From positions 1 to 30,070 of IMG/VR virus record IMGVR_UViG_3300042402_006460: a stretch of 30,070 nt of DNA, one strand, 5' to 3'. Positions 11,660-29,700 of this stretch are shown here, one piece after another. Position 1 is the stretch's first letter. Every line of letters starts with the position of its first letter. The notes beneath the pieces are model-generated. The model saw only the letters and a program-made list of their open reading frames with translations. It did not search any database and was not told the origin of the DNA. Both the position numbers and the translations under genes were made by a program. This DNA is from a virus.

Positions 11660-13072
11660 TTATGGCATTCCAAAAGGATTGGTTTCGTCAAAATCAATAA
11701 TATCGTCTGCTTCTTCTTCAATTTCCTCATTCGCAGCGTATCCATCTCTTGCAGGAAATACATCAATGGATCGTAAGTATTGAGATGCACTTGATGCAGA
11801 ACCTACAATATTTTCTCCAATTTTAAATTCACCATTAATGTTTGAAACTTGAAGAACTTTTGTAGTGGAATTCCAAGATTTAACTCTTGCGGTAACTCCA
11901 CTCTGAGATCCAGTTACAATCTCATTAAATACGAAATTACCAGTTGAAGTAAGTAATGGATTTGATATTGTAATTGTTGGAGCGACAGTGTACCCAAGTC
12001 CAGCATTTGTAATTCTAATTGAGGTAATTGTTCCAGCAGCAGAAACAACTGCTGTCGCTGCAGCAGATACTGTAGATATTCCTGTAAATGTAATTGTTGG
12101 TGGAACTACATATCCAGATCCTCCACTTGTGACTGTAATAATACCAACGACACCATCACCTATAGATGCAATACCAGTTGCACCTTTACCTCCTCCACCA
12201 ATAAACCTTACTTGAGGAGCAACTGTATATCCAAATCCTGCATTGGTAATTTCAACACTTTGAACAGATTGTGCTGATGGATTTATATTATTATTACAAT
12301 CAACTATTCCACTAATCATCTTAGCAATTGCAGTTGTTGTTTTACCTCCAGCTGGTGCAGAAGAAATTCCAACCGTAGGTGTACTGGTGTAACCACCACC
12401 ACGATTTGTAACAGTTATAAACCTCACTCCACCATTTACAATTGCTGCGGTAGCCGTTGCAGTAACACCAACTCCAGCCATAGTAAGATTTACGATGTTT
12501 CCAACTGGAACTTTATCAGAATCGGTGGAGTCGTTTCCTCCAATAAGTTCATCAATTTCATCAATACTTGTGTCTATCAGTTCATCTTCATATCTGAAGA
12601 GCTCACATCTGAGTTGATATGTATATAATCCTTGAAGTTGATAGAATGGTTTTTCGTGCTCTACATATTTAACTTCAAATAATCTTTTACCCAGAGGAAA
12701 ATAGATTATATCCCCCTCTTTTGGTCTTGATGATACTTTTATATTTGGTTGATTTTGAACTAAAGGTGAAATATAATTTTTAAATCTTTCTCTTGAAATA
12801 ATTAAAGTTATTTCATTCAGTGCTTGAATTCCAAATTTTGATAAAATAGTAGGATTATCACTGTATCCATCATAAGTGTCTACATATGCTTCAATTGGAT
12901 AAGCACTGTTAAACTCAGATTCTATAACCTCTCTCAATACTGTTTTTTCTGTGATAAATTGTCTAGGTAAATAGTGAACCTCAACACCATACATCCTCAA
13001 TTGCTCATTAATCAGATCTTGAATGAGACTCTGTTCTGTTTTAGAACCTTGAAGAAAGAATGGATTAAGCAT
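11660..13072 (-). CDS. 14: Neck protein gp14 carrying a large beta-repeat insertion
   Basis: Protein of 470 residues; T4 gp14 is only 256. gp14 sits with gp13 in the neck that closes the filled head and receives the tail. Residues 1-165 follow T4 gp14 closely: LRMYGVEVHYLPRQFI (26-40), KEGDIIYFPLGKRLFEVKYV (118-137) and KPFYQLQ. The end, FDETNPFGMP, mirrors T4 SNPFDNDFMD. Between them lie about 190-440: four repeats of the type ITNAGLGYTVAPTITI (217-235, 273-290, 311-329, 351-369), then a module with VKSWNSTTKVLQVS (398-410). The extra length is therefore an internal insertion, not a fusion at an end. It starts 4 bases after gp13, in T4 order. Confidence 0.93.
   Translation of the reverse strand: MLNPFFLQGSKTEQSLIQDLINEQLRMYGVEVHYLPRQFITEKTVLREVIESEFNSAYPIEAYVDTYDGYSDNPTILSKFGIQALNEITLIISRERFKNYISPLVQNQPNIKVSSRPKEGDIIYFPLGKRLFEVKYVEHEKPFYQLQGLYTYQLRCELFRYEDELIDTSIDEIDELIGGNDSTDSDKVPVGNIVNLTMAGVGVTATATAAIVNGGVRFITVTNRGGGYTSTPTVGISSAPAGGKTTTAIAKMISGIVDCNNNINPSAQSVQSVEITNAGFGYTVAPQVRFIGGGGKGATGIASIGDGVVGIITVTSGGSGYVVPPTITFTGISTVSAAATAVVSAAGTITSIRITNAGLGYTVAPTITISNPLLTSTGNFVFNEIVTGSQSGVTARVKSWNSTTKVLQVSNINGEFKIGENIVGSASSASQYLRSIDVFPARDGYAANEEIEEEADDIIDFDETNPFGMP
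11765..11944 (-). repeat. Second shared beta module (G-x-SG...SW...L.V) in gp14
   Basis: Residues 377-436 of gp14: a segment of the form F-x-EIVTGSQSGVTARVKSW, then KVLQVSNINGEF and IGENIVGSAS. Similar half-repeats occur in gp8 (22506-22613) and in both giant proteins (19440-19617 and 28612-28790). It follows the GGxGYT block directly. Confidence 0.6.
11957..12424 (-). repeat. Four GGxGYT-type beta repeats inside gp14
   Basis: Residues 217-372 of gp14 hold four units of the pattern (V/I)T-N/S-x-G-x-GY-T/V-x-x-P-x-(V/I), spaced about 38-56 residues. They run from TVTNRGGGYTSTPTVGI to RITNAGLGYTVAPTITI. T4 gp14 lacks this region. The same unit recurs in gp8 and both giant proteins. Confidence 0.75.
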
Positions 13073-13076
13073 ATGA

Positions 13077-13931
13077 TTAACCTATCATATCCAGAGGAGG
13101 AAGTTCATAAGTGCTAGACATTTTTTCCATTAAAATATCAATCTCTCTTTGTCCGTCATCATACATTTGTCTTCCATTTAACTCAACACCACCAGGAAGT
13201 TTAACACCAGTAAATTTCATCATATTTTGACCCCACTGCTTCTTAATCAAGGAAGTTAGGTATGGTTTTAGAAAAGAATCGTTCCAAACTCTTGAATAAT
13301 CATTTGGATCAAGAGTTGAGTAACAATCAATAACAAAAAATTGATCTGCTCTTACAGATCCCCAATCAATGTCTAAGTATAATCTGTCTTGTCTTTTATT
13401 GAATCTTATTTGTTTCTGAGTATTCAAGAGAAAATCAAGATCTTCTAAGTATGTCTTAACCATTGCATAACTTAGAAGTTCTGTAGTACCCCAATAGTAA
13501 ATATCGTTTAAAAACAATTGATACTTCACACTAAACATATTATTAGTAATAGTGTTTGCTCCGTCGAAAGTAAAAATCTTATTTACACCAATGATATTTG
13601 GTGGCATTTGTAGATAATTACTATTTTCATAGAAATTGAATGTGGTTGCAGTTCCCACTATATTTGCTGTCGCTGAAGTACTTGCAATTCCTACAGTGCT
13701 TGATGAATTACCTGCGGTTCCTGCTTTTCCTCTATCGATATCTGCTTGAGTTACTTTATACTTATAAAATGTAGGGTATACTCCATCAAAGTGTCTTTCT
13801 TGGAAAAATTGGACGGCATCATCCACCAAATCTTCAATTTGTTCATCTGCAACGTTAATTTCTAAAACCGGAGCACCCAGTTTTCTCTTGCAATAATCAA
13901 TGAGTTCTTGTCGAGTAGATGGTTGTGCCAT
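13077..13931 (-). CDS. 13: Neck protein gp13
   Basis: Protein of 284 residues (T4 gp13 is 309), a head-completion protein that binds the portal and gp14. Matching features with T4: the N-terminal RQELIDYCKRKLGAPVLEIN with helix DEQIEDLVDDAVQFFQERHF then DG (about 7-50), and the C-terminal KLPGGVELNGRQMYDDGQRE with ELPPLDMIG at the end, mirroring T4 [20 protein letters not shown] and DPPFGILVG. Residues about 68-97 are a Ser/Thr/Gly-rich insertion with GIASTSATANIVGTATT, similar in style to the pentapeptides of the giant proteins. Its ATG overlaps the stop of the 56-aa gene (TAATG). Confidence 0.95.
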   Translation of the reverse strand: MAQPSTRQELIDYCKRKLGAPVLEINVADEQIEDLVDDAVQFFQERHFDGVYPTFYKYKVTQADIDRGKAGTAGNSSSTVGIASTSATANIVGTATTFNFYENSNYLQMPPNIIGVNKIFTFDGANTITNNMFSVKYQLFLNDIYYWGTTELLSYAMVKTYLEDLDFLLNTQKQIRFNKRQDRLYLDIDWGSVRADQFFVIDCYSTLDPNDYSRVWNDSFLKPYLTSLIKKQWGQNMMKFTGVKLPGGVELNGRQMYDDGQREIDILMEKMSSTYELPPLDMIG

Positions 13932-14101
13932 TAGATTTTAAACCCTGCAACTACTTCTTGTTGTTTAAAGTACAGTTTGATATAAGATTTCGCTAGATTT
14001 CTCAAAGTTTCAATATCTTCTATACTATCTATATCTCTAGAAAGTTTTTCATATTCAAATAACTTACTCATGTTTTCTAGAGATATTTTATCAGGATCCA
14101 T
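13931..14101 (-). CDS. Conserved small helical protein, 56 aa
   Basis: Short frame read from the gap upstream of gp13. The ATG at 14101 gives 56 residues: MDPDKISLENMSKLFEYEKL, then SRDIDSIEDIETLRNLAKSY and IKLYFKQQEVVAGFKI. It looks fully helical and charged. I recall a similar conserved small protein ahead of gp13 in marine T4-like phages, with the same FEYEKLSR and LAKSYIKLY features, but no function. The start overlaps the end of the 74-aa gene by 11 bases, and the TAA overlaps the gp13 ATG. This gives a tight three-gene coupling that supports it being translated. Possibly a neck or baseplate assembly accessory, from position only. Confidence 0.75.
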   Translation of the reverse strand: MDPDKISLENMSKLFEYEKLSRDIDSIEDIETLRNLAKSYIKLYFKQQEVVAGFKI

Positions 14102-14315
14102 TTGCTAAATTCCTCAATAAGTTTTTAATTTCATTCAAATCATTTTTCATTTCACTTACATCATTTTCAAGATTTTTAATTTTCTGCGATTCATTATATG
14201 CTTTTTTATAACTTTGAATATAAGCATTGTAACTTTCGGTATCAGTACTTACTATTCCTTGAGAATAGCAATCTCTAACCAAATGATCCTTATCTTTTAC
14301 TTTAATATAATCCAT
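14091..14315 (-). CDS. Conserved small coiled-coil protein, 74 aa
   Basis: Protein of 74 residues: MDYIKVKDKDHLVRDCYSQG, then an acidic/polar middle and a C-terminal heptad-like helix (about 44-70, KIKNLENDVSEMKNDLNEIK followed by NLLRNLANGS). The hydrophobic spacing (L, V, M, L, I, L, L) suggests a coiled coil. I recall homologues with the VRDxYS and LRxLxNGS ends at the same place in marine T4-like phages, before the 56-aa gene and gp13. In T4 the trimeric coiled-coil fibritin (wac) lies just before gene 13. This protein is far too short to be fibritin and I do not claim homology. It starts 3 bases after the 2621-aa gene. Confidence 0.8.
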   Translation of the reverse strand: MDYIKVKDKDHLVRDCYSQGIVSTDTESYNAYIQSYKKAYNESQKIKNLENDVSEMKNDLNEIKNLLRNLANGS

Positions 14316-14318
14316 ATT

Positions 14319-17300
14319 TTATACTCTTGGTTTTACAGTAGCAATTGCTCTCAACTGTCTAATCAGAGGAGGCATTGCTTGATTTTCTGCTGCCATTACA
14401 ATTTTGATTGAGAATGCATCAAAATCAGGTAAATCATCAACAGAATACTCATAATCCAAGAAAGATCTATCTGAAGTAAATTCTACTTTAGAGTCTGCAG
14501 ATCCATCATTTTGAGATTTATCAATAACTCTCTTAATTCCTTGTCCATCAACTTGATAATTCTTATAACCCGGGAACAACTCATAATTCTGAGAAATTCC
14601 TGGAGCATCTGCTCTAAAGAGTCTATAAAGAACTCTTACATCATTCATATCTGTATGACTTGCTGAGAGAAGAACTTTGATAGAGTTTGCAGGAATCTTC
14701 AATCTCACTGCCTTAGAAATGTAGACCATTTCATGCTTATCATCAAATAGAGATCTAACTGAATCATCATCTGCATAAGTTGAATTTTCATTCAATCCAT
14801 TTGGGCTGTTGATCAGATTAGAAGTTAGAACAGCATTAACTTTTATCAAATCAATAACTGGAGATACTCTCGTATCTGTTGTATTCATCAAGAATTCCAT
14901 AGTAAATGATCTGCTTCCTGGAGACTCTGTTATAAATTCTTGTTCATTTACTTCAGAACAAATTAATCTCGGAGAATCAAAATAAAATGTTGAGTTTAGA
15001 GGAATTGTAGTAAATCCTTTATCAGTGAAAGATTTCTCTGATCCACTAATACTTGTTCCAGTAAATGTTCTGACTCTTGCATTTAAGTTAGTTTTTCCTG
15101 GAATAATATAAGAAACATTTGGAGTAATTGCTTCAAATTGGATATTACTTGTAAGTACAGTTCCTGGTTCACCAGATTGTGCTGTTTCTGTGAAGTATAG
15201 ATCATTTGTACGATCTGATCCAATTCCAGTATTATTATAATCAGTATCAGAAGGATCTATTCTAATATGATAAGAATTAAGTGTTATAGGATGAGTTCCA
15301 ACTGGAAGATTTGTATCAACTTCGGCAAAATTATGAACCTTATTAATTCTTCTTAATGAGAATCCATTAAACTCATACTTATAAACAGGAACATTTGCAT
15401 CATAAGGTTGTGCTTGAGTTCCATCAACACCTCTTTCAGATACTGTCAGAGAGTTTGCACTTACAGATGTATATTTAATAACTTCATAACCAATAATTGC
15501 ATATCCAGGATTTGATACACTAACTGTAACTCCTTCAAAAGTTTCAAATCCAGCAGAGGAAACTACAGGAATTGATAATGCACTACTTGTAACTGCATCG
15601 GTTAGTCTTGAATTGACTCCATTTTGTGGAGGTCTCATCTCACTGATTTTTACATAATTTTCTGTAGAGTGCATACCATGATTAATTTGATTAATCTTCA
15701 TATGCAGTCCATCATAATAAGCATCAGGAATAATAGTTCCGATTGTTGCACCAGTAGAAACTGTACTTCCAATAGAATTTACATAAGTTAATGAATTAAT
15801 TCCAACACTAAAGTTTCCTTGAACATTATCTAAAATAAATGCATTTGGTATAGCAGAGGTTCCAGTAACTGTAAGTTTCCCACCAAATCCAACATTAAGA
15901 CCAAATTCCTTTTCCGGAATAATTAAAGAATCTCCTTGTAGATATCCAAATCCACCATTGGTAATGCTAACCGCAGAAATACCTGAACTTGAAACGGTAA
16001 TGTTTGCTTGAGCACCAAAACCAACTCCAGTTTCACTTTCTAAAGAAACTCCTGTAAAGGTTCCATTCGTATATCCAATACCAGTATTTGCGATACTGAT
16101 TGCTGTGATACTACCTGCAAGACCAACTAGTTTACCAGTTGCTGCTCCTTGTTTAATTGTAAGTCCGTTGGTGATTCCTGTTGTACTATATCCTGTAGAA
16201 CCAAGACCAACAGTAATTTTCTTAGCAAGAGGTAGGAATTGATTGCTACCGGTTACAGTAACTTTTTTGTTACCAAGAGAAAGTTTTGGATTATAGAATC
16301 TAACAAGACCTTCTGGAACAAAGTCTGCTCTATAAAGTCTATACTTTAAGTCCTCAAGTTGAGCAGGTGACCAAGTTGATCCATTTTGTGATTTGAATAG
16401 ACTTCCGAGTGTTGGTTGTACAGATATTTTAATTCCTGTTCCAAAATTAGGACTATCTCCAGGTAATATGGCATTTTGTCCAAGTTCAGAAATAAAGACT
16501 CTATACTGTGGACTCCCTGATAGTAAAACTATACTAAACTCAGAGGTTTGTTGACTTCCAACAGGAGCATTACGAACTTCAAGTTGTTGAGGACCTGGTA
16601 AATATACAGGAGATGGAAAAGTAAATCTTGTTGGAATGGTTGCATCCGGTGAAAGATTAATTTGATCAGGATCTAAAGTAACTTCAGAGAAAGGAACAAC
16701 CATATTACTTGGAACACCTGCAATCATAGGTCTAATTTGAAGTGTTACAGGTATAACCTCATCCTTTGTTTCAAAGAAAACTTCAACTGCAGTTATGAAA
16801 ACTCCAGTATTATCGCGAACATAGAATGATTGTGCAAGTGGATCGTGATTTTCCCATACTCTAAATTGATCTTGTCCAGAAGTACCTGTTTGTGTTCTTG
16901 TTACTGTAGTTGTATTTGTTGTTGTATTCGTAATTGTTGTTGTGTTTATATTAAAACTTTCTAGAATTGTTATATTTCTAGTTGTGAGAATATTGGTTGC
17001 TGTAACATTTGCAATTGCAGATGAAGAGAAGTCCTCTTGAGCAGAACTTTCATTAACTCTTGTATTTGAAATAAACTCTTGATAAGTTCTTCCAAGATCT
17101 TGTAAGTTTGGAGTATCAATAACAGTAAATGTGTTTCTTCCATTAACCCACTGAGGATTTCCTGGAACGTTTGGATCTGGAATAAACAATGAACCTACGA
17201 GTCTTCCACTATTATCAGAAAGAAGTCTAATATTAGTGATTCTTGCAACTGCACCTGAGGTCTTCCCGATCAGTTTCATATCTTGACCAATCTGACCATA

Positions 17301-20300
17301 AAACTCTACTTCTGATGGAAGTTCAAGTGCTCTTGTATCTACATTTAAGAATGTTGATGATTCACTATAGTCATTTGGAATTGGTTGTAAGTTATAAGGA
17401 TTTAATATGAAAACATCAGGTTTTGGTAGTGTTGCTGGATTTTGTGGTAAAACTTGACCTGTTGTAAAATCAACTATAGGTACTGGATTTGTAAATGTTG
17501 ATGGATCTGAACCATCAAAAGGTCCAGTTCTATGATTTGGTTTGCAAAGTCTAAATCTTATTTTTGCTGATGGAAAATGAGGATCACTTTCTACGGTTTC
17601 TCCAATTTCGAACTTACCTGAAACCATTTCAATTTCAAGTAATTTTGGAATTATGTACTTAGCGACATCAATTCCTTGGAAGAAACTATAGAATCTTGTG
17701 CGAGGTCTTAATCCTTTTACATCAAATTCAATATTTCTACTTCTTAAATATCTTACTGGTTCTGTATAATTGGAAATTGACTCTGAAGTAGTATCTGTAG
17801 TGATAATTTCTTCAGGAACAATAATAGTATTAGTATTGCTAGTAGAAGATGTGGTTGTTGTAGTATCTCTTGTTTCTGTAACAGATACGCTACCAGTTCC
17901 TGGAACAAAATTAATTACCGATCTTGCATTAGAATTTATTGTACCAATTGAAGTTAAAAACTGTCTAGCAATATCTGGTGGTAAAAGTTGATTAATTAAA
18001 TTTCTATCTGCTTGAGTTACACTTCTCTTAAATACATTTAACTGAATTACATCACGACCAATTACGTTTGCTCTTTCACCCACACCAGCAGTGGTAATGT
18101 TACTTGCTGTTTTGTTGTTATCTATTCTAACAGGTTGTCCACCGATGCTTGTTACACCAGTTAAGAGAGTTCTTGCATTTCCAATCCAATCAAAAGGATT
18201 AATTCCTGTTTGTTGATTTGGAGGATTGTTAACAAATACATCTCTATTGATAGTATCGTTAATGGTAATTGTTGAATTCTGATCTGGTCTATCTACTATA
18301 TTTCTTATTTCATTAAAACTTGTTGTAGTAATTGCTATTTCATCAATCCAACTATCTTCTGGTGGATTGAGTGTAATGATTCCAGTCCAATATCTAACTA
18401 AGAATGGAGTAACGCTTTCAGTTTTAGTTGCATAAATTTGCTCAAAATAAAGAACTTCATTATAATTAAGTGTGAGTAAATCTCCAGTTTTTCTGATATT
18501 TGGTGATCCTAAATCAGAAACATAACTTTGGTCTACATTTGGATTGAATGTTTGCCCAACTCCACTAATTGCCTCAGAACCAAGTTGTAAGTCTAAAGCA
18601 GTTGTGTAATGTAGAGGTCTTAGAGTATTGGAACTTGTATCCATACAAGATTTAAATGCTGGATTTTGAAGATCATTGTACTCATTAGAACTAAAATTAT
18701 CAACAAAGAATCCACACTTAAATCTATCTAATCCAGTTTCTGCATCTTTAATCGTAAAGTTTTCAGTTTTACTTTCAAGCATTGAAAGAGTAGTAAATCT
18801 TTCAACTCTTTCAATTCTATTTTCAAGTAATGCAATGTCCGTCATTCTATATCTCTTGTATTCAGACATATCAACGTTTACATTTTTTACATCATAAACA
18901 TAAGGACCGATGAATACGGTTGCAATATCTAATGAATTACTCTTTAATGGCGGTGGAATTGGACTTGATGATGGATTTCCTTGAACAACCTCAAATGTTC
19001 CATCGCTATTTAAGAAGACTCTATCAATTCTTCCAACATAATATGAGTATGATAAGAATAGATTTTCTCCTGGTGCAAGAATATATTCTGAGTACTGACC
19101 ATCACTCGCAAAGTTTCTTGAATCAAATTCAAATGGAGACTTTGAAGTACCTGAATATGGAGCAACTCTCGGACGAATATCAATAAAGTCTGTTAATCTT
19201 CCTCCATTATAGAAAGGAACATTGGTTTTAAAGTCATTTTCGCTGTAACTATTAACTGTAATAATCTCTCCGGTATCTGTAGAATCAATCGTATAGTTTT
19301 GGAATATAATTTTTAATTTTCCTTTTGGTTCTCCTATATTATTTTTTCTAATGATTCTTGAGAAATCATAATAAGTGTCTCTTTGTCCATCATCAAAGAT
19401 AAAGTTCTGAGTGATGTTCTTATCACCTAAAGTTTTATTCGCAATAATTGCTTCTTCTTTAGAATCTTGTCCAATAACAACTTCGTTTAAATCAAATTGA
19501 ATAGTATTCAAATAAGTATACTCTAACTTATCTGAATTAATCTTTGCAGTTATAAGAGCAACGGCACCAGAAGTTTTACCTTCAATTTGCTCACCAATTA
19601 CATATTTTGTATTTCCTGCTGGATTTCCTGTAATTTGTAGTGTTGGAAGACTTGGATTAGTAATTCCGTTAGACTCATAAACAGCAAGAACTCTTACAAC
19701 ATCAGGAACATTTAAACTAATCTCTTTATCTTGAACTCTTGTTCCATAGACTTGACTATAAGTTAGTCCATCATTAAGAGTTGTTGTTCCAATTCCAGAT
19801 GAAACTGATTTGGAATTGGAAACTACAATTGAAGATACTTTGTTTAACTTTTTAGTTTTTGAATTAACTCTAATGTTCTTAACGGTTGCAATTAATTTTG
19901 CATTTGAACCACTTGCTTTTGTTAATCCATTAAATGTTAAAGTTTTTCCATCCAAACTTACATTATATTTGTCTGATCTCATAGGTTCTATAGAACCATC
20001 ACTATAGGTAATAACAAATCTATCCTCATCAAACGAATCAAAGAAAACATCAACGTCTGCTGGATCAATTGTTACTGAAATTGAATTACCAGAGAAAGAA
20101 GAAATATTATAAGAACGTCTTTGAAGTACTTCGTTACCTTCTAAAGTAATCGAGGAAATATTATCTGGATATAATCTTGTCAGAAGTGAAGAATCTTCTA
20201 TATTAATAGAAGATGCTACTCTGATTATATTTGAAACCTGGAATGATCCAGTCTGCAGTTTTCCATTGCAGACACCAGAGACTGTTGTAATTCCTGTGAT

Positions 20301-22184
20301 TGTGAAGTTGGTGCCACCAGCACCAACAGCAGTAACCTTATTATAAATTGGATCTCCACTGAAAGTGGTACTTGCATATGAAACAATATCACCAACTTTT
20401 ACGATATTAGTAAATACATTTTCGAGACCTGCTGATACAAGTCCATCATTAACATTGAAGGTAGTTCCTGGTTTTGCAATATATGACCTTCTCGATAAAA
20501 CTATATCAGCATTAAATGTTGTTACTCCAACTTGAGAATAAACTGATTTAATATCGGATATAGAATAATCAGTTACTGAATCAATTAATCTACCATCATC
20601 AATTCCATTAATTATAATTTGCTCATTTTCTAAGAAATTACCAGATGTTTGATATAAAGTTAATATAGTGCTTCCTGCCGAAACAGTGCTCTTTAGGTAT
20701 CCAGTTGCTTTACTTTTCTTTCCTTCAATAAAGGTAGGTACAGTAAGATCTAAAGTAAAGGATGTTGTAAGACCTAGTTTAGTAAACGTTTGGATATCAA
20801 AAAGTCTGAGATTCAAACGACTTGTATCATCAACATAGTCACTTTCTGGAACAAAATCATATATTCTTGCAACACCAATAGTTGTTCCAGTAGCAACATA
20901 TGCGGTTTCTCCAATACGAGAATCCATTAAACTTATTGTAGCATCGGTTCCAAGTCCGATCGAAGGAGCACCATATGCATTATTAAGAACAACTAAATTA
21001 CCTGCACTATATGGAATAACCTGATTCTCTATAGTTTCAGTTGTTCTTGGTTTTGGAACATCTAAAAGTCTTGGCGCAATGGTTTCTACATCATATCCAT
21101 TTACATATGCTTTTCCTGGCCCAATCTGATAGATCATCAAATCTTCAGATGGATTATTTCCTTGAACAGTCTTTTGATCTTTAAAGAATACACCTTGGTT
21201 CAAAACTCTATCATTTAAACTATCTCTAACAAATAGTGTAAATGGAGAAACAAAGTAGTTACCAGACTCATCAAAAGTTCTTCTTGCTAACTCGTCTCTA
21301 ATTAGATTATATTGTGGATTCTTATTGAAAAACTGAGGAACACCATTTTCAACTCTTAAAATTTCTACGAAATTATCAGTTTCTGTATCATCTATAGATT
21401 TTTTGGATAGTTCTAATGTAATCTTAAATCTATCTGCGCCTGGCGCTGCGAAGTTAGAAAATCCTTGAGCATTATCAAACAAAGTAGGATCTTCGTCTGA
21501 AGTTACAACCTCTTCAATAATATCAAATCCAACTTTATATGATGGTGCAGTAGAGTACTGATCAAGAATAATAGTCTGATCTACTACTCTTGCAAAAAAT
21601 CCTCTTACAAAATAAATACCACTTGCTACTGATACTGCAGAACCTTCAGAAATAGCGTTTGCTGATATTGTATTACAGATACCCTGTCCAACTTGAATTG
21701 TAAAGTTTCCATATGTTAATGGAGTTTCAAGTGTTAGAGTCTCAGAATTTTGAAAGGTTCTATTTTCAAAATCTGCTCCACCACTTTCTAGATATTTTAG
21801 ATATAAAGTATAGTTTCCTCTTTCAGATTCGGTATTTTTGAGTAAGAAAACAACCTCAGCAGAAACTCCACTTACCGATCCTCTAAGTTTCTTACCTAAG
21901 ATTTGATCAAAGTAAAGTGAAATTGGAGCGCCATTAAAAGCAGGTTCAATTTCTACAGCATAAAGAGGATTTTCATATCTTAACTGACCTGGAATTACAA
22001 CAGATCCCTCTTTAAAAATATGTTTACCATATTGTTCAATTTGATTTTGAAGAATTGACTGTAAACCAGTTAATTCTCTTGCTTGAATTGGATATCCGGG
22101 TTTAAATAAAACCTTATAATAGTCTTTATTTGTATCAAAATCGTCAAAATATGGAGAGACGTTGAGGTTAGTTTCCTGTGGCAT
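14319..22184 (-). CDS. Giant DUF4815-type baseplate/tail structural protein, 2621 aa
   Basis: The N-terminus (LNVSPYFDDFDTNKDYYKVL, then FKPGYPIQARELTGLQSILQ) marks the DUF4815 family of myovirus tail structural proteins. About 1110-1180 is a helical stretch (IALLENRIERVERFTTLSML) followed by GLDRFKCGFFVDNF. About 1775-1830 has the family motif DPLAQSFYV with GVFITAVEVFFETKDE and IPVTLQIRP, a beta domain. Two Thr/Asn-rich linkers lie near 1435-1470 and 1744-1765. Further on are GGxGY repeats (15905-16140) and an EVIKYTSVSANSLTVSERG module (15370-15609). In T4 this interval holds genes 9-12 and wac. One gene here fills it, so it probably contributes outer baseplate or fibre-attachment parts. 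DUF name from memory; T4 equivalence is inference. The frame is uninterrupted, with its start 6 bases after gp8. Confidence 0.85.
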   Translation of the reverse strand: MPQETNLNVSPYFDDFDTNKDYYKVLFKPGYPIQARELTGLQSILQNQIEQYGKHIFKEGSVVIPGQLRYENPLYAVEIEPAFNGAPISLYFDQILGKKLRGSVSGVSAEVVFLLKNTESERGNYTLYLKYLESGGADFENRTFQNSETLTLETPLTYGNFTIQVGQGICNTISANAISEGSAVSVASGIYFVRGFFARVVDQTIILDQYSTAPSYKVGFDIIEEVVTSDEDPTLFDNAQGFSNFAAPGADRFKITLELSKKSIDDTETDNFVEILRVENGVPQFFNKNPQYNLIRDELARRTFDESGNYFVSPFTLFVRDSLNDRVLNQGVFFKDQKTVQGNNPSEDLMIYQIGPGKAYVNGYDVETIAPRLLDVPKPRTTETIENQVIPYSAGNLVVLNNAYGAPSIGLGTDATISLMDSRIGETAYVATGTTIGVARIYDFVPESDYVDDTSRLNLRLFDIQTFTKLGLTTSFTLDLTVPTFIEGKKSKATGYLKSTVSAGSTILTLYQTSGNFLENEQIIINGIDDGRLIDSVTDYSISDIKSVYSQVGVTTFNADIVLSRRSYIAKPGTTFNVNDGLVSAGLENVFTNIVKVGDIVSYASTTFSGDPIYNKVTAVGAGGTNFTITGITTVSGVCNGKLQTGSFQVSNIIRVASSINIEDSSLLTRLYPDNISSITLEGNEVLQRRSYNISSFSGNSISVTIDPADVDVFFDSFDEDRFVITYSDGSIEPMRSDKYNVSLDGKTLTFNGLTKASGSNAKLIATVKNIRVNSKTKKLNKVSSIVVSNSKSVSSGIGTTTLNDGLTYSQVYGTRVQDKEISLNVPDVVRVLAVYESNGITNPSLPTLQITGNPAGNTKYVIGEQIEGKTSGAVALITAKINSDKLEYTYLNTIQFDLNEVVIGQDSKEEAIIANKTLGDKNITQNFIFDDGQRDTYYDFSRIIRKNNIGEPKGKLKIIFQNYTIDSTDTGEIITVNSYSENDFKTNVPFYNGGRLTDFIDIRPRVAPYSGTSKSPFEFDSRNFASDGQYSEYILAPGENLFLSYSYYVGRIDRVFLNSDGTFEVVQGNPSSSPIPPPLKSNSLDIATVFIGPYVYDVKNVNVDMSEYKRYRMTDIALLENRIERVERFTTLSMLESKTENFTIKDAETGLDRFKCGFFVDNFSSNEYNDLQNPAFKSCMDTSSNTLRPLHYTTALDLQLGSEAISGVGQTFNPNVDQSYVSDLGSPNIRKTGDLLTLNYNEVLYFEQIYATKTESVTPFLVRYWTGIITLNPPEDSWIDEIAITTTSFNEIRNIVDRPDQNSTITINDTINRDVFVNNPPNQQTGINPFDWIGNARTLLTGVTSIGGQPVRIDNNKTASNITTAGVGERANVIGRDVIQLNVFKRSVTQADRNLINQLLPPDIARQFLTSIGTINSNARSVINFVPGTGSVSVTETRDTTTTTSSTSNTNTIIVPEEIITTDTTSESISNYTEPVRYLRSRNIEFDVKGLRPRTRFYSFFQGIDVAKYIIPKLLEIEMVSGKFEIGETVESDPHFPSAKIRFRLCKPNHRTGPFDGSDPSTFTNPVPIVDFTTGQVLPQNPATLPKPDVFILNPYNLQPIPNDYSESSTFLNVDTRALELPSEVEFYGQIGQDMKLIGKTSGAVARITNIRLLSDNSGRLVGSLFIPDPNVPGNPQWVNGRNTFTVIDTPNLQDLGRTYQEFISNTRVNESSAQEDFSSSAIANVTATNILTTRNITILESFNINTTTITNTTTNTTTVTRTQTGTSGQDQFRVWENHDPLAQSFYVRDNTGVFITAVEVFFETKDEVIPVTLQIRPMIAGVPSNMVVPFSEVTLDPDQINLSPDATIPTRFTFPSPVYLPGPQQLEVRNAPVGSQQTSEFSIVLLSGSPQYRVFISELGQNAILPGDSPNFGTGIKISVQPTLGSLFKSQNGSTWSPAQLEDLKYRLYRADFVPEGLVRFYNPKLSLGNKKVTVTGSNQFLPLAKKITVGLGSTGYSTTGITNGLTIKQGAATGKLVGLAGSITAISIANTGIGYTNGTFTGVSLESETGVGFGAQANITVSSSGISAVSITNGGFGYLQGDSLIIPEKEFGLNVGFGGKLTVTGTSAIPNAFILDNVQGNFSVGINSLTYVNSIGSTVSTGATIGTIIPDAYYDGLHMKINQINHGMHSTENYVKISEMRPPQNGVNSRLTDAVTSSALSIPVVSSAGFETFEGVTVSVSNPGYAIIGYEVIKYTSVSANSLTVSERGVDGTQAQPYDANVPVYKYEFNGFSLRRINKVHNFAEVDTNLPVGTHPITLNSYHIRIDPSDTDYNNTGIGSDRTNDLYFTETAQSGEPGTVLTSNIQFEAITPNVSYIIPGKTNLNARVRTFTGTSISGSEKSFTDKGFTTIPLNSTFYFDSPRLICSEVNEQEFITESPGSRSFTMEFLMNTTDTRVSPVIDLIKVNAVLTSNLINSPNGLNENSTYADDDSVRSLFDDKHEMVYISKAVRLKIPANSIKVLLSASHTDMNDVRVLYRLFRADAPGISQNYELFPGYKNYQVDGQGIKRVIDKSQNDGSADSKVEFTSDRSFLDYEYSVDDLPDFDAFSIKIVMAAENQAMPPLIRQLRAIATVKPRV
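15905..16140 (-). repeat. Two GGxGYT-type repeats in the 2621-aa gene
   Basis: Units ITAISIANTGIGYTNGTFTG and ISAVSITNGGFGYLQGDSLI, about 40 residues apart, the same unit type as in gp14, gp8 and the other giant protein. Confidence 0.65.
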
Positions 22185-22190
22185 AATTCT

Positions 22191-23741
22191 TTAGAATTGC
22201 AAAATGACTTTGATATCTTCTTTTTGGTTTTGTGATCTAGTAATTGATGGTCTATTATCGACGTAAATAATATTTCCTGAGTATTTTTTAACCTCTGGAT
22301 TTGCTACACCACCAATAAAAGACTGTCCAAGATTATATGTTCTATTATTTAGTGTGGTTGATACGCCTGTAAATGCGGTATCAATATAAAGATTTGTACC
22401 TGTTATGAAAGTTGTTCCTCCAGTTCCAACAGAATTTGTAAATCTATTCAATTGAATTCCATAGGTTGGAGAGGCATTTTGAGAACCATCTGTGTTAAAT
22501 CCTACAAGACTCTTATCTTGCCAGTATTTTAAAACACCTGTATTTGTATCATAAGATACAACTCTTCCTACTGCTGTTGTTCCTGTGCTTATGGTTTGAG
22601 TAAATGTCGAATTTGCAGTAAAAGTTGCAGTATCAAATCCGGTTCCAGCAAGTTTCAATGCATAAACTGCACTTGCTTTATCTAAATCCAATAAAGAGGA
22701 AGAATTGAATGCCTGTGGATTTTCTACAAGACCAACTCTTGCAATTTTATTTCCAGTAATAAAGTCTGGATTCTCTAAGTCATTTTCAATTCTAGAATAA
22801 ATTAAAACGTTATATGCTCCAAGTTCTCTATAAATATCTGCACCGTGACCTCCTTTTGGTGGTATAATAACATCAAAAGTTGGTGTTACTGCTCCTGTTG
22901 GAACATTACCACCAATTAAATCAACAGTTCCATAAGTATAACCAGAACCACCAATAGAAACTGTAACTGATTCAACTTTAGAATCATTATTAACGACTAT
23001 GGTTGCTTTTGCTCCTTGCCCATCACCTTTAATTGGAACATTTGTATAAGTTCTATTCGCTGTTCCTACACCGACTCCACGATCTGTGATCGTAATGATC
23101 TTAAGTTGATTATTAGTAATAGCAGCATTAGTTCTAATTGCTGCACTCTCAGAACTAGTTTCCCAATCTTTTGGAACAGGTATAAAATTAACAGTATCGA
23201 ACTTTATGACCTCGCTTGGTTTGATTGTATAAAGATATTTCCAAATATAACCATCACCACTATCTCCAGCTGCTTTTGGTTCTAAATCAGTAAAAGTTGG
23301 TTCATCAAGAGATGGTCTTCCTGCTGGATTTTCTGGATCTGTACCATTTTGAAGACAGATATAAACTCTATAATCACTATTGATTACATAATAATTTGAT
23401 GAATATAGACTGGTTGCTCCAGATGGTAGTGATGTATTTGTTCTACTAATATCATGACGATACATATCATAAATTGATCCAGACGACCAAGTTATTTTAC
23501 GAATAACTTGATTTACATCACTTGCTTTAATTTTCTTCAAAGCAACCATAGTGTCCCAATAATCGTTTTCCTGCTCAAAACTATCTTTTGGTGCTGGAGG
23601 ATTATTTTCCCAGTTAGAAGCATAATCAGTTGCATTAGTTAAACCAACAAAAGAATAATAAGAATTTGAAGAAGAAGTCGCTGCTGCAACAAAATTCTTC
23701 GCATTCAAAATTCTTAACTGATCAGTTATAATTGCAGACAT
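22191..23741 (-). CDS. 8: Baseplate wedge protein gp8 with inserted beta modules
   Basis: Protein of 516 residues (T4 gp8 is 334). gp8 is a dimeric component of the baseplate wedge, assembled onto gp7/gp10. Matches to T4: the N-terminal MSAIITDQLRILNAKNF, then YWDTMVALKKIKASDVNQVI (61-80), DYRVYICLQN (123-132), SGDGYIWKYLYTIKP (161-175; T4 GDGYVWEYLFEIPP), FIPVPKDWE (186-194), and the end GNIIYVDNRPSITRSQNQKE plus DIKVILQF (489-516; T4 EMIYMENRPPIIMAMDQTEE then INILFTF). Extra material lies at about 208-300 (repeat with VSIGGSGYTYGTVDLIG) and 372-425 (TAVGRVVSYDTNTGVLKYW), the same module types found in gp14. A CATAAATA box just upstream may be a late promoter. Confidence 0.92.
   Translation of the reverse strand: MSAIITDQLRILNAKNFVAAATSSSNSYYSFVGLTNATDYASNWENNPPAPKDSFEQENDYWDTMVALKKIKASDVNQVIRKITWSSGSIYDMYRHDISRTNTSLPSGATSLYSSNYYVINSDYRVYICLQNGTDPENPAGRPSLDEPTFTDLEPKAAGDSGDGYIWKYLYTIKPSEVIKFDTVNFIPVPKDWETSSESAAIRTNAAITNNQLKIITITDRGVGVGTANRTYTNVPIKGDGQGAKATIVVNNDSKVESVTVSIGGSGYTYGTVDLIGGNVPTGAVTPTFDVIIPPKGGHGADIYRELGAYNVLIYSRIENDLENPDFITGNKIARVGLVENPQAFNSSSLLDLDKASAVYALKLAGTGFDTATFTANSTFTQTISTGTTAVGRVVSYDTNTGVLKYWQDKSLVGFNTDGSQNASPTYGIQLNRFTNSVGTGGTTFITGTNLYIDTAFTGVSTTLNNRTYNLGQSFIGGVANPEVKKYSGNIIYVDNRPSITRSQNQKEDIKVILQF
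22914..23105 (-). repeat. GGxGYT-type repeat block inserted in gp8
   Basis: Residues 213-276 of gp8: KIITITDRGVGVGTANRTYT followed by VESVTVSIGGSGYTYGTVDL. Absent from T4 gp8 and placed between its conserved FIPVP and YNVLIYSRIEN regions. Confidence 0.65.
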
Positions 23742-23757
23742 TTTACGGTTTTTTATC

Positions 23758-23765
23758 TATTTATG
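23758..23765 (-). promoter_or_regulatory. Possible late promoter CATAAATA before gp8
   Basis: CATAAATA on the minus strand overlaps the stop codon of the upstream giant gene, about 17 bases before the gp8 ATG. It fits NATAAATA but would leave a very short leader, so support is weak. Confidence 0.35.
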
Positions 23766-26700
23766 AGGTTGAATAACCAATATACTTTAATTTATTGTAT
23801 CTTTGAACTATTGGAGAAGATGAAATTCCTGCAATATTTGCATAAGTTGTAAATTGTTGAGGATCAACACGAGTTGGTGTTGAAATTCTTCCCCAACTAT
23901 ATTCTCCATAAAAATCACTAAATCCAAGTCCAGTTAAACCATTATATCCAGATACACTTACAGTTACCTTAGCAACATTAGTAACACCAACACCAGGAAC
24001 TGCAGTTTGAGCAATAGAAACAGCAGCGACTTGGTAGATATTGTCTATGAAGGTTGTTCCTACACCAACGATACCGCCTGATGAACCAAGAGAAGTTACT
24101 CCTTTTCCTACATTTGATTTGTTTATTACAAAATAATAACCAGTTTGAATACCACTAATTCCTGTTGTTGCGATACCAACTTTTACAGTTTTACCATCTC
24201 TTAAAACTGAATTATTAGGAATATAGAAATCAAATATAATTCCAGTTGATGCAACTCCAACAGAAGTTGTATTGATTCCTGTAATTAATCCAAAGTCGCC
24301 TTGATAAGAAACTTTATCAATAGTTTCATAATTAAATGCTGGTGATTCAATTAAAACAACAGGTGGTTCCGATGAAGTATAACCAACTCCAGCAACTGTT
24401 ACTGCAATTCCTGTTACAACTCCTCCAGATATGGTTGCAGATGCTTTTGCGGTGTTTTGTGCTGCAGTCGTTCCAAAACCAATCGGACCTGAAATTGTAA
24501 TTATAGGCGTGGTTGAATATCCAACTCCACCATCAGAAATAACAATTGAAGATATAGTTCCTGATGCTGATACAACGGCAGTTGCAGATGCAGAGACTGT
24601 GGAATCTTGAGATATGATTAGAATTTTGTTCTGTGGTTTTTCATTAGTTCCGTCACGAACATATTCTCTTTCACTATCAAAGAATGCTTTAACACTTTCT
24701 ACAAAAATTGCAGTAGATCCAATACCAATATTTTGAATAATATTAGTTGTAGGTTGAATATAAGGTTCATAAAGAGTTCTATCTTTACCAACCACTTGAC
24801 CATTTACAACTAAATCTTCAGTCTGTCTACACCACTTAAGTGGTCTTGATAGATTCTCATCTTCAGTAATTCCAGGACCAGGATATAGATTTGTTTCGAG
24901 AATATCTGAAGAAATTATCTGAGTGACTAATCTGCTATTTTCGGTAAGTTTAATATCATCACTATTTAAAGTTACAGTATCACCAACTTTAATAGTTTCT
25001 AAAATATCTACATTTAGAGTATCAACATCACTAGTTCCTCTGTAGAATATAATTTTAGATCTATCACCCTCTTTAGGTGCTTCTGTAAACCTTATAATAC
25101 TTCCTCCCTTGAATATGTATGCCTTACCTGGAACTTGTAAAATATCGTTGATGAAAATCAGGAGAGTTGCTTGAACATCAATGTTTGATCCTACTTTTGA
25201 TCTAATCGTAGTTTGATTTCCATCAATTCTAATTGGAAATGCCTTTCTACTTCCATCAAATAGAGAATCAATAGGATCAATGACCTGAAGAGAACCAACA
25301 GTCCATGCTGCAAATTTATCGGAATAAATGTTATCAACAGAAATTTGGAACTCCGAGAAACTCAGAGAAGTGTTTGTAGGAATTCCAGTAGTTCCCCCTC
25401 TCGAAACCGTTAAGATTTCACTTCTATTGTATCCATAACCAAGATTTTTCAACTCAAACGAAATTACACTAGATCCTTGTCCAACAACAATATCAATAAC
25501 TGCTCCAGTACCAACACCTGCTGATGACTGAGAACTGTAAACTAAAGGAATATTTGAATATGATAATGGATCATCAAAAATTACAATTGGTGGATTAGAT
25601 GAGGTATATCCAACACCTGGATTGGTAATTGCAACACTTACAATACGTCCACCACTAACTGCTGCTGTTCCAATAAACTCTATATTTGGAATTCCAGTGC
25701 TTGAAGTTGCAACACCAACGTTTACAATTGTTTGTACTCCAGATCTATATCCAGATCCACTATTTCCAATACTGATTGACTGAATTGTTCCTGCAGATGA
25801 AACAATCGCAGTTCCACCAGCTGCAACTAATGGTTGATATCCAAATCCTTGAGTTGATGCAACAGAAAGAATAATACCACCTCTAGGAATACTTGCAGTA
25901 TTTACATCATAACTTGTTGAAGTTGCAGTTCCAGTAAATGATATTGTAGTAATTCCAGCGTTTTCAGTTAAGTCATAATCATTTGTAGTGAGAAGAGTAT
26001 TAGGACCTTGGAATACATCATTAATTAATACAATTGCATTATCAGTAGATATTCCAGTCACATTAGAACCACTAGATTTTAATGTAAAGGTTTTATCAAT
26101 TCCATCAAAATGGTCTGAGACATCATCAAAAATATAGTTACTTGAGTATGACTCATTTACATCGTCGGAGATACCAGATCTCAAGAATATTCTTCCGCTA
26201 AATGATGATCCAGTTGCAATTCCAATATAATCTTGCTCATCTGCTCTATCTGATAGATTTGCAAATGGAACCTTTCCATAAGGTGCTTCAGAGAAATAAA
26301 TTTTATTCTCAACAATATTATAATTTCCATAAACCTTTGTAACCAAAGAAGATGAAGAATGTGTAGATAATCCAGTTCCTATCCAAGGTCTATTTACAAC
26401 AAATATATTTGTACTTCCAACACCAACAGAAATAACCTTCATAATCTCATCATCAATTTTAATCAAATCCCCACCATAAATTGAACCGATTCCAGAAACA
26501 TAGACTTCAGAATTGAAGAATCCTAAGTTTTGTGTTAAAGTTGTTGTAACTGAAGTTGAAACTATTGGAGTTTGAATGATATTATCAATTCCAATTATTC
26601 CTTTTTTATTTTGATTTTTGGAAGTAAACAGGTGAGAACTTCCTATCCCCACGGAAGTTAGGTTTAAAACATTTGGAATTGACTTGAGTGCTTCAGATGC

Positions 26701-29700
26701 AGATGCAGAAACTTTTATGTCTAAGTCATTTAATCTAACGACGTATAAAGTCGTAGGAAGTTTATCAGTTGTACCAATTCCAGCAATAGAGGTTGTTGCT
26801 ATACCAATTGCATGAGTTGTACCAACTCCTGGATAAGAATATGTTATTTCTTCACCAGTAACATAGAAATTATTTGGAATTCTAATAATATCCTTATCAA
26901 CATTCACTACACTTGTACTGCTTGCATCAAAATATCTTTGGAAAATTTGTATATTTTGATGTGTTAAATTAAATTCTTTCTTAATATCATTGTCTGTACC
27001 AGTGTAACTACCATGATCATATTCTATAGTTCCATTTGTTAAAGATAATGTATCAAAATCGTTACTCAAACCAATATTGGCAAAAAATACCTTAACATCA
27101 ACATTAATGTTTTGATTGGGAGTAAAATATATGTTTGTGTTTGATCCAGAAATTCCAGCAGTAGTTATACCAAGAGAAGAATCTGTCTGTAAAGTTCCAA
27201 ATTCTGTAATGTAACATTCATTTTCAAAAGAATTTGTTGCTACTAAAAATTCAGAAACTTGATATCTTAGATTAGTTTTATCCTCAACGCTAATAATGCA
27301 ATATGAAGAATTATAATCCGTATTCGAATAATTTGATATTGTATTTGCTATGGGAGAAGTACTAGAAGCAATTGATACTGACGAAGAATTAATAGAAGCT
27401 CCACCAATAATTTGAGTTCCTATTCCAGATGCGGCAGTATTTGCTATCGAAACATTAAAAGTATTAACAACATAATCAACAGAAGTTGAAGAATCAGGTA
27501 TTAAATCAATTTTAACTTCAGATCCCGATAGATATGCATTATAAGTTCCAATTCCTGAAGATGATTGTGAAATAAAATTATCTGTGGTTATTTGCCCATA
27601 ATCAATAATATGAACTTCTGTTCCTGTATTAAGTATAGTTATTTCATCTACTTCATAATAAGATGAATCTGTCGCTCCAATTTGAACTAGAACTTTTGAT
27701 GATCTATAGGTAGAAGCAATTCCTACAATAGTCGTAGAAATTGTAGTTCCTTGTGGAATCGTTGTAGTGTTAGTATTGACACGAACAGAATCGCCCAAAT
27801 CTACTGTTCCAACACCACTGATTATATCATTCAGTGAGAATGAGAAAAGTTCTAAATGGTAATTATTGAACTTTGTTTTTGTTGGATAGAATAAAAGATT
27901 TCCAGAATTTCCAGAAACACTAAAGTCAAATGTTCCCAACTCTCTAGGATTTGTTGTGTTTAATCCATATTGGTTTATAAATCCAACATTATTATCGTGA
28001 AGTAATACTATTAGACTAAATTGTTTTTCATTTACAAATTTTTTATCCTGTATCAGTGCAAAATATTTTTTAGTTCTATAGTCATTTAGTGTAAAAGATT
28101 CTACTATGCTGAATCTTGTTGGTCTTGGATTGCTATTGAATTGATTAGAAATATCATCAATCATCAAAACTCTGTTTCCAACGGATTCAATATAATCTTG
28201 AACAATTCTAGAATCAAGCAAAATTTCATTCGATCTAATATTGTTATCAACAAGTATATTATTTTCTCTTGCAAGATCAAAATCATAAACACAGTTTAAA
28301 TCAACAACGCTTGATAAATCTGAAGTTCCAGAAAAATCACCATTGTTTTGATCTGTAGAAATTCCAGAATTAGTTGGTGTTGATTCAACAATTAAATCAC
28401 TAAACTTCTTAAATCCTGCAGTGTGGTTCAAAGAACTGACTGGATTATTCCAAGTATTAAAATCTTTTTGTGATTTTAATGAATATGAAAAATATTGATA
28501 ATAATCACTATCTTGAACTCTTTGGAAACTATTGTTTAAGAATCCTGTTTCTCTATTCCAACCTTTTCTTGAATTCGAAGTTGCATCTACTTTATAATCA
28601 GCCTCAAAACTTATAAGATTTTTGATAATACCCACAGAACTTGAAGTTTCTCCTCTTACAGACTGATTGATAATAAAGTCATCAATTGTAGAAACTTTAA
28701 GATATTGATTATCTGAATCCCAAGATTCAACTTTTCCACTTGAAGATGAAGAATAAACTGTTTCTCCTGTATAAAACTCATTTCTCTTAAGAACAGGATT
28801 AAAAATAGGAAAATGTGCTTCTGGAACTATTTTACCAGCAGACAGAGAACTATTAAATGTTCCTGGAATTTCGCCATTCTGTAGATAAGATGAAAGATTG
28901 AAAGTAACAACTCCAACTGCTCCTCCAAGATTTGGATCAACGGCAGTTAATGTAAACAGAGCATAATCATAATTTGATGAGTTATAACCCTTTGCTGTAG
29001 ATGCAATTCCAACACTTATGCCTTCAATTAATACTCTACTTCCAACTATAAATGGATAATCTTGAGGATCACTAAAACTTGCACCTAAGGTTACTGTTAC
29101 ATCTTTAGTTGAACTGTTGAATACTATATTTTGAATTTTAATTCCATTAGAATTATTAGTTGGAATAATCTTAGGAGTTACGTTACTAATTGATGTGCTA
29201 TTTTTCCTTATAGTAACTCTAGAATCTCCAAGTTCATAATATAATTCTACATCACTAATAACCTTATCAGTTAAACCATCAACAACTACAAGTGATGGTG
29301 CGGAATTATAATTTCTTCCAACTGAAGTAATTCCAATATAATCAAAAGATGAAAGAGATTCAAGAACCAATATAGTTGGAAGTTTAGCAGTTGGTCTAAT
29401 GCTATAGTCTGCAGAGTATTCAAAACCAATATCTTGTATTTCAGTTGAAGTAACTCTTCCTATTTTACTGGTTTCTAAATTGATTATTGAGTCAGTTCCT
29501 GAATCAGATTCTATTGAAGAAACAAAAGGTAGTGAAGAATAATTCTTCCCTTTACTTAATACTTTAACCTGTTTTATCGGTCCTTTTGCTGAAGTAGAAC
29601 TGTCTGTGTAGTATTCTATACCTTGATTGTATGAAGATATTTCTGGAGTATCTAGAATATTATAACTAAATGAAGTTGAAGAGATTCCAACAATCGTATG

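Follow-up and report, generated by a model that had tools for sequence, protein, structure and literature searches.

A viral DNA stretch of 30,070 nucleotides, IMG/VR record IMGVR_UViG_3300042402_006460 (the window, meaning this whole stretch), carries on its minus strand a structural cassette of a T4-like phage, with the C-terminal half of gp7, gp8, a VrlC/DUF4815 protein, gp13, gp14 and further genes. A beta-repeat unit of about 39 residues recurs in four of the products, namely the neck protein gp14, the baseplate wedge proteins gp8 and gp7 and the VrlC protein. The locus raises the question whether such a unit is a mobile part that has spread over unrelated virion proteins, as the original prediction proposed, or a fixed component of the tail machinery. 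The analysis reported here indicates that it is probably an accessory, exchangeable virion beta-module, analogous to the immunoglobulin (Ig)-like domains of phages.

A hidden Markov model (HMM) profile built from twelve window units found four units in gp14, two in the VrlC protein of 2621 amino acids (aa), five in the 2084-codon gp7 fragment, and one clear and one weak (aa 213-224) in gp8. In a leave-out test, in which the profile was trained without the protein under test, the best score was compared with the maximum over 500 residue shuffles of that protein. The scores were 39.4 versus 6.6 bits for gp14, 17.7 versus 6.1 bits for gp7, 14.8 versus 8.1 bits for VrlC and 11.0 versus 6.4 bits for gp8, the weakest of the four. 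Two of the twelve copies (gp14 aa 297-334 and gp7 aa 1504-1542) were not recovered in this test, and the extra, weak gp8 copy scored 5.0 bits, not above the shuffle maximum. These results indicate, at the level of sequence, that the four virion proteins carry one homologous unit. They agree with the earlier count of four copies in gp14, one or two in gp8, two in VrlC (aa 2013-2050 and 2056-2093) and at least five in gp7. Probably gp8 carries two: an iterated profile called two in 43 of 43 aligned gp8 proteins, though a stricter seed profile called one in 80 of the 82 gp8-sized open reading frames (ORFs) with a match (and four in 62 of 83 such gp14-sized ORFs). A degenerate group had also been proposed at 29275-29590 in gp7. 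It gave no significant score in the window with the unit profile, but the aligned stretch gave a 9.9-bit call in relatives L270 and L272 and a 21.6-bit call in the distant L273, and no unit call in L269 and L271; it is taken as decayed units.

The T4 counterparts were said to lack the repeat, and this was borne out. No unit was called in T4 gp8 with the unit profile, and a possible vestigial unit at the C-terminus of T4 gp14 was rejected, its faint similarity being equalled by 59 of 1000 shuffles. A single 5.6-bit call in a T4 sheath fragment was taken as noise. By sequence, the unit belongs to no named family in NCBIfam (no match) or the PDB (best E 0.91), and with Pfam eight repeat regions gave two models only, each in one of the eight, at E 0.043 and 0.088. 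PHROG families do contain it, inside longer profiles.

The AlphaFold2 model of gp14, a single chain built from 80 aligned sequences, has a mean predicted local distance difference test (pLDDT) score of 72.2. Ten-residue blocks of the repeat region (201-370) reach 85-94, except for 63-68 at 251-270. Each unit is predicted to form two strands and a short third one, with the G-x-G-Y-T-x-x-P signature at a turn. For gp8 the model is of low quality (mean pLDDT 44.4); its unit b is predicted to have strands in the same order (245-250, 256-263 and 269-273; blocks at 60-81). Residues 27-162 of the gp14 model align with T4 gp14 (9lu4; Z 10.0, root-mean-square deviation (rmsd) 3.6, 102 residues aligned). 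Over about aa 190-442, VIA-align gave matches to small beta-barrels with 55-74 residues aligned (Z 5.3-6.3, rmsd 2.5-4.0), among them those of aIF2-gamma, archaeal EF1-alpha, ATP synthase and a JBD30 baseplate protein. These aligned stretches are too short to cover the units, which fits units inserted in a barrel. The PDB fold rows shown for gp14 contain no clear match to the unit region itself, which is not proof of a new fold. A Foldseek search of predicted viral structures returned 71 matches at E≤0.001, with low TM-scores; the 50 listed include a wedge initiator of Bellamy and a wedge protein of phiM9.

This barrel is itself a second recurring module, with a GETVTGSTSGATA-like signature, in gp7, VrlC, gp14 and weakly gp8. 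A profile from gp14 aa 375-440, iterated over the window and a phage panel, called it at 39 bits in gp7, at 47, 28 and 13 bits in VrlC and at 11 bits in gp8, where VIA-align with the poor model also matched mainly the barrel-like region (Z≤4.2). From the models, a small beta-barrel is the probable structure. The gp14 units sit inside this second module, at two different loops in different lineages. In the window group they follow the first barrel strand and precede the remainder of the barrel, and in S-RIM32, S-CAM4, S-RIM12 and S-RIM4 one loop further on. In the VrlC homologue of Syn19 (L167), barrel calls without a unit were found at ORF residues 1930-1982, near the site of the window's unit pair. 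It is suggested that unit and barrel modules may replace each other at the VrlC site, where one or two units were found in 55 of the 57 homologous regions scored.

The number of gp14 units was determined over 21 phages (18 plus three added). Four units are present in the window, S-SM2, Bellamy, B23, S-SRM01, S-T4, P-SSM2, AG-345-F15 and S-B05, two in ACG-2014f, S-RIM32, S-CAM4, S-RIM12 and S-RIM4, and none in Syn1, S-RIM44 (99.3% identical to Syn1), Syn19, S-SSM4, HTVC008M, T4 and phiM7. The gp14 of Syn1, S-RIM44, Syn19 and S-SSM4 has the barrel without units, and no barrel was called in that of HTVC008M, T4 and phiM7. The repeats are not uniform in gp8 and gp14 homologues, being absent from the T4 pair and from six other gp14 proteins, and copy number in gp14 varies as had been expected, although it is fixed among the window's close relatives (see below). 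The gp14 proteins of Syn1 and S-RIM32 have the same residue at 238 of 292 aligned positions (81.5%), and the difference in units between them is a single two-unit block of 80 aa. Similarly, S-SSM4, without units, shares 75.3% and 75.0% identity with S-RIM12 and S-RIM4, which have two. In a tree of the stopper domain, in which 5 of 18 inner branches are well supported overall, two four-member clades, each with both states, are made up of the four phages with inserts at the second loop and the four that have only the barrel. Between these clades the inserts are 65-76% identical and the stopper domains 40-42%; in S-CAM4 and S-RIM12 the values are 76.1% and 42.3%.

The unit is also found well beyond this phage group. 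At E≤0.001, 18 PHROG families were matched by eight gp14 repeat regions; among these families are head closure, wedge, tail fibre and hub-with-lysozyme proteins as well as virion proteins without a name. With a two-unit consensus as query and a cutoff of E≤1e-3, 319 of the 50,697 phage records gave a match, and 285 of these are Synechococcus, Prochlorococcus or cyanophages by the first word of their names. Among the 60 matches listed, tail sheath annotations occur in Stenotrophomonas, Xanthomonas and Pseudomonas phages, and the sheath proteins of Mendera and PPpW-3 contain two units each. In bacterial and archaeal genomes the unit consensus matched at least 591 stretches and at least 229 relatives, the best 80 of which all have unit ORFs. 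Eight unit proteins from cellular genomes, chosen partly for a phage-like look, were scanned against PHROGs; tail tube families were matched by two of them and a tail sheath and a minor head family by one each, and the sheath-matching protein had no Pfam match. In the Pseudomonas tail tube protein of L209, the unit pair lies inside a full TTP_11 profile (aa 19-266), and in L225 it follows a TTP_17 tail tube match. The pairs in or at the end of tail tube, sheath and minor head matches (L209 3614-4414, L225 3380-4222, L229 3584-4939 and L263 3518-4534) are probably located in prophages. When ten unit proteins were scanned against Pfam, three matched a multicopper oxidase model, one molybdopterin-binding models and one a glucanase model, so the unit is not only viral. 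The idea that it decorates the neck and baseplate was accordingly too narrow, as it also occurs in annotated tail sheath proteins, in proteins matching tail tube, minor head, hub and fibre families, and in cellular proteins. No plasmid matched gp14 aa 190-375 at E≤1e-5. A tentative preference for pairs was noted: two units were the commonest array size in the best 80 cellular-genome loci (67 of 153 arrays), for which the query was itself a two-unit consensus, and single calls were commonest in the phage panel (40 of 70). No description of the repeat was found in the open-licence literature at the level of titles and the start of abstracts, and searches with motif strings gave none.

Copying between genes was also part of the original prediction. 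When the window units were compared with those of S-SM2 and P-SSM2, for 10 of 13 the nearest unit was the one at the equivalent position in S-SM2; the gp7 unit at aa 1446 and both VrlC units did not follow this pattern. The gp14 inserts of four other phages, compared with the panel ORFs, were each nearest to one another; in this test the phage's own genome was represented for S-RIM32 alone, by 28 kb. Recent gene-to-gene copying was thus not seen in either comparison. Because most window units are nearest to their S-SM2 counterparts, any copying looks old within the few genomes compared. What holds of the mobile-domain proposal is the modular behaviour of the unit, that is, the two-unit block, the two loops and the occurrence in unrelated proteins.

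An accessory role would explain these features as follows. Units, often in tandem, would be inserted in loops or linkers that tolerate extra mass, so that the conserved assembly surfaces keep working. In gp14, barrel and units fill the C-terminal segment, whose T4 counterpart docks on gp15. Gain and loss would take place by recombination between homologous structural genes, and the units would face outward from the particle, which, with six gp14 copies as known for T4, would present about 24 of them on this protein. By analogy, they may serve weak, many-point contact with host-surface material or add stability. Several points weigh against this account. With the iterated profile, four units were called in gp14 of 80 of 80 close relatives (the window and 79 of 80 fetched) and two in gp8 of all 43 (the window and 42 of 80 fetched). 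These counts cover the closest relatives and are not representative of distant ones, and the units may be structurally needed there since they are fixed. The rest of the barrel and the C-terminus is also better conserved than the stopper domain (63-68% between the two clades, and 54-57% when insert-free members are compared), so that a lower evolutionary rate may account for some of the apparent insert transfer, and the stopper-domain tree is compatible with a gain of the block in S-RIM32 as well as with its loss in Syn1. With gp14 aa 190-375, tblastn reached no more than 15 phage records at E≤1e-5; these are all of Synechococcus or marine phages, and the matches are neck proteins wherever annotated by name. 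The wider spread depends on profiles and the consensus query. Finally, the models are of single chains, the outside position and any ligand of the units are hypothetical, and because the C-terminal segment of T4 gp14 binds gp15, a role of the gp14 units in the neck-tail joint is possible.

On a rival reading, units and barrel would be parts of the machine and not decoration: they would widen the joint between gp14 and gp15 and the wedge interfaces of gp7, gp8 and VrlC, and lock them in place. Such reinforcement is unlikely, though it accounts for the fixation in close relatives and for the contact with gp15 that a passage of the preprint PMC12270204 describes, in the virion, for T4 gp14 aa 178-256, a stretch disordered in the isolated neck. 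It is also in keeping with the finding that each of the eight gp8 proteins of the panel other than that of T4, the window's among them, has at least one unit call; in gp8 the unit is old. The gp15 protein, however, shows no gap or notable length change with the gp14 block: it has 266 aa in both Syn1 and S-RIM32 (85.7% identical, gap-free), and 260 aa in S-SSM4 versus 261 aa in S-RIM12 and S-RIM4 (73.4% and 75.3% identical). In the first pair gp13 behaves likewise (276 aa each, 88.0% identical, gap-free). Over eight phages compared, gp14 unit number did not track gp15 length (S-SM2, four units, 333 aa; P-SSM2, four, 280 aa; Syn19, none, 343 aa; Syn1, none, and S-RIM32, two, 266 aa). Slightly less likely still is a single scattering of the units in an ancestor, followed by retention or loss by lineage without lateral movement. 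The positional matches to S-SM2, the near-constant VrlC site and the undirected Syn1/S-RIM32 change would all be expected from such an old duplication, but it sits poorly with two distinct insertion loops within one barrel, with inserts 76% identical over stopper domains 42% identical, and with the presence of the unit in cellular proteins and, among unrelated phages or prophages, in proteins of the sheath, tail tube and minor head. A mere convergence of glycine-, serine- and threonine-rich beta proteins on a similar pattern is very improbable. The unit is short and the gp8 score low, but none of the 500 composition-keeping shuffles per protein reached the best leave-out score. Likewise, the 448 ORFs of the window and phage panel gave 130 unit and 64 barrel calls and one shuffled set 0 and 0, a consistency check, as the profiles were partly trained on these ORFs and the leave-out test is the independent one. 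Taken together, the unit is tolerated in the gp14 segment without a visible change in gp15 and is found on tube, sheath and baseplate too, and it is therefore best read as an accessory part.

Table 1. Positions of the units, barrel modules and their genes in the window.
Feature	Position	Strand	Basis
gp14, neck/head-closure protein, 470 aa, four units	11660..13072	-	PF11649 E=2.1e-28; phrog_460
gp14 stopper domain (aa 1-178), common to T4	12539..13072	-	fold match to T4 gp14 in 9lu4
Likely first strand of gp14 barrel module (aa 191-200), upstream of units	12473..12502	-	inferred from short VIA-align rows and alignment to insert-free Syn19
gp14 unit 1 (aa 203-240)	12353..12466	-	unit HMM
gp14 unit 2 (aa 257-295)	12188..12304	-	unit HMM
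gp14 unit 3 (aa 297-334)	12071..12184	-	unit HMM; missed in leave-out test
gp14 unit 4 (aa 335-372)	11957..12070	-	unit HMM
Remainder of gp14 barrel module (aa 375-440)	11753..11950	-	source of barrel HMM; present in other phages' gp14
VrlC/DUF4815 protein, 2621 aa	14319..22184	-	PF16075 2e-59; phrog_358; S-SM2 annotation
VrlC unit 1 (aa 2013-2050)	16035..16148	-	unit HMM
VrlC unit 2 (aa 2056-2093)	15906..16019	-	unit HMM
VrlC barrel module (aa 859-915)	19440..19610	-	iterated barrel HMM 47 bits
VrlC weaker barrel calls	aa 485-524 (28 bits), aa 96-151 (13 bits)	-	iterated barrel HMM
gp8, baseplate wedge, 516 aa	22191..23741	-	PF09215 1.6e-17; phrog_438
gp8 unit a, weak (about aa 204-236)	23034..23132	-	weak in window; iterated profile 43/43 aligned gp8
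gp8 unit b (aa 243-281)	22899..23015	-	unit HMM
gp8 barrel-like region (about aa 352-459)	22365..22688	-	barrel HMM aa 371-406, 11 bits; VIA-align Z≤4.2, poor model
gp7 baseplate wedge initiator, C-terminal half, cut by window edge	23761..30070	-	phrog_2885; L269 gp7; S-SM2 annotation
Degenerate unit group in gp7 (aa 142-247)	29275..29592	-	scored only in relatives L270, L272, L273
gp7 barrel module (aa 413-465)	28621..28779	-	iterated barrel HMM 39 bits; gp14-only profile 18.6 bits
gp7 unit (aa 1398-1435)	25711..25824	-	unit HMM
gp7 unit (aa 1446-1483)	25567..25680	-	unit HMM
gp7 unit (aa 1504-1542)	25390..25506	-	unit HMM; missed in leave-out test
gp7 unit (aa 1807-1845)	24481..24597	-	unit HMM
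gp7 unit (aa 1855-1892)	24340..24453	-	unit HMM

As shown in Table 1, the window genes could be named from family matches and relatives. The top-listed tblastn match of gp14 is that of Synechococcus phage S-SM2 (Kyanoviridae; 62.8%), in whose record the neighbouring genes are named gp7, gp8 and VrlC. The 2084-codon ORF, open at the window edge, corresponds to residues 1980-4063 of the 4063-aa gp7 of L269, the first 600 aa of the window fragment being aligned at 83%. For these 600 aa (28216-30015), a pattern search of viral contigs found five relatives, one of them partial, far fewer than the searches with gp8 and gp14 gave. Judged by the relatives found, gp7 seems far more variable than gp8 and gp14. 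A possible third shared motif, L.V.RG..GT, was noticed at the C-terminus of gp15 (10602-11603, so called by position and length), at about aa 2205-2275 of VrlC and at about aa 1160-1225 of gp7. The similarity of gp15 and VrlC was narrowly above that of 500 of 500 shuffles in both directions, that of gp7 and gp15 was marginal (8 and 6 of 500 shuffles as good), and that of gp7 and VrlC was unsupported (184 and 104 of 500). This motif is partly supported.

New here are the location of the gp14 units at two loops of a second module, the 80-aa block present or absent in gp14, and the unit in proteins matching sheath, tube, minor head, hub and fibre families and in cellular proteins. If true, the repeat would be an independent example of accessory-domain trading, beside the Ig-like domains and without a named family. 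Natural pairs with and without the block occur in named Synechococcus phages, so that an effect on adsorption or stability is directly testable. There is also a warning for annotation. The family profiles of gp14, gp8, gp7 and fibres cross-match through the repeat (the window gp14 matches 19 PHROG families at E≤0.01), and names passed on in this way may be wrong.

Ig-like domains are the best-known accessory domains traded between virion proteins of tailed phages, among which they are reportedly promiscuous. Like them, the unit is a beta-module of unrelated virion proteins in unrelated phages, is probably exchanged, and is absent in some close relatives, as in gp14 of Syn1 versus S-RIM32 and of S-SSM4 versus S-RIM12 and S-RIM4; weak adhesion has been proposed for both. 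The unit differs in its length of about 39 residues, its frequent tandem arrangement, its G-x-G-Y-T-x-x-P signature and its ability to sit inside another module. No Pfam Ig model matched the eight repeat regions at E≤1, and no Ig domain is named in the fold rows shown for gp14, which does not argue against one. Weak adhesion to carbohydrates is an idea that a passage of PMC9230969 quotes from its reference 72, taken to be Fraser et al. 2006. Passages of the same paper describe extra beta domains on the conserved core of sheath proteins, away from the tube, which are thought to aid stability or adhesion. The unit pairs on annotated sheath proteins resemble these domains, but those described are mostly Ig-like beta-sandwiches, and the repeat is not named in these passages. 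The second module of gp14 can be compared with the RIFT-related tail and neck domains treated in passages of PMC10684548, as it aligns to small barrels at Z 5.3-6.3. Values below 8 are in the range of common arrangements, and this link is our own and concerns the barrel, not the repeat. With T4 itself, the stopper domain of gp14 is homologous (PF11649, 9lu4) and gp8 shares its family (PF09215). On a broader view, for and against which the evidence is about evenly poised, the unit would represent an unnamed second class of plug-in modules parallel to the Ig-like domains: a repeat, often paired, that unrelated phages carry on proteins of the head, neck, tube, sheath, baseplate and fibres, that also occurs in bacterial and archaeal proteins and that is in some cases nested in a barrel, so that virion surfaces would be stacks of interchangeable parts.

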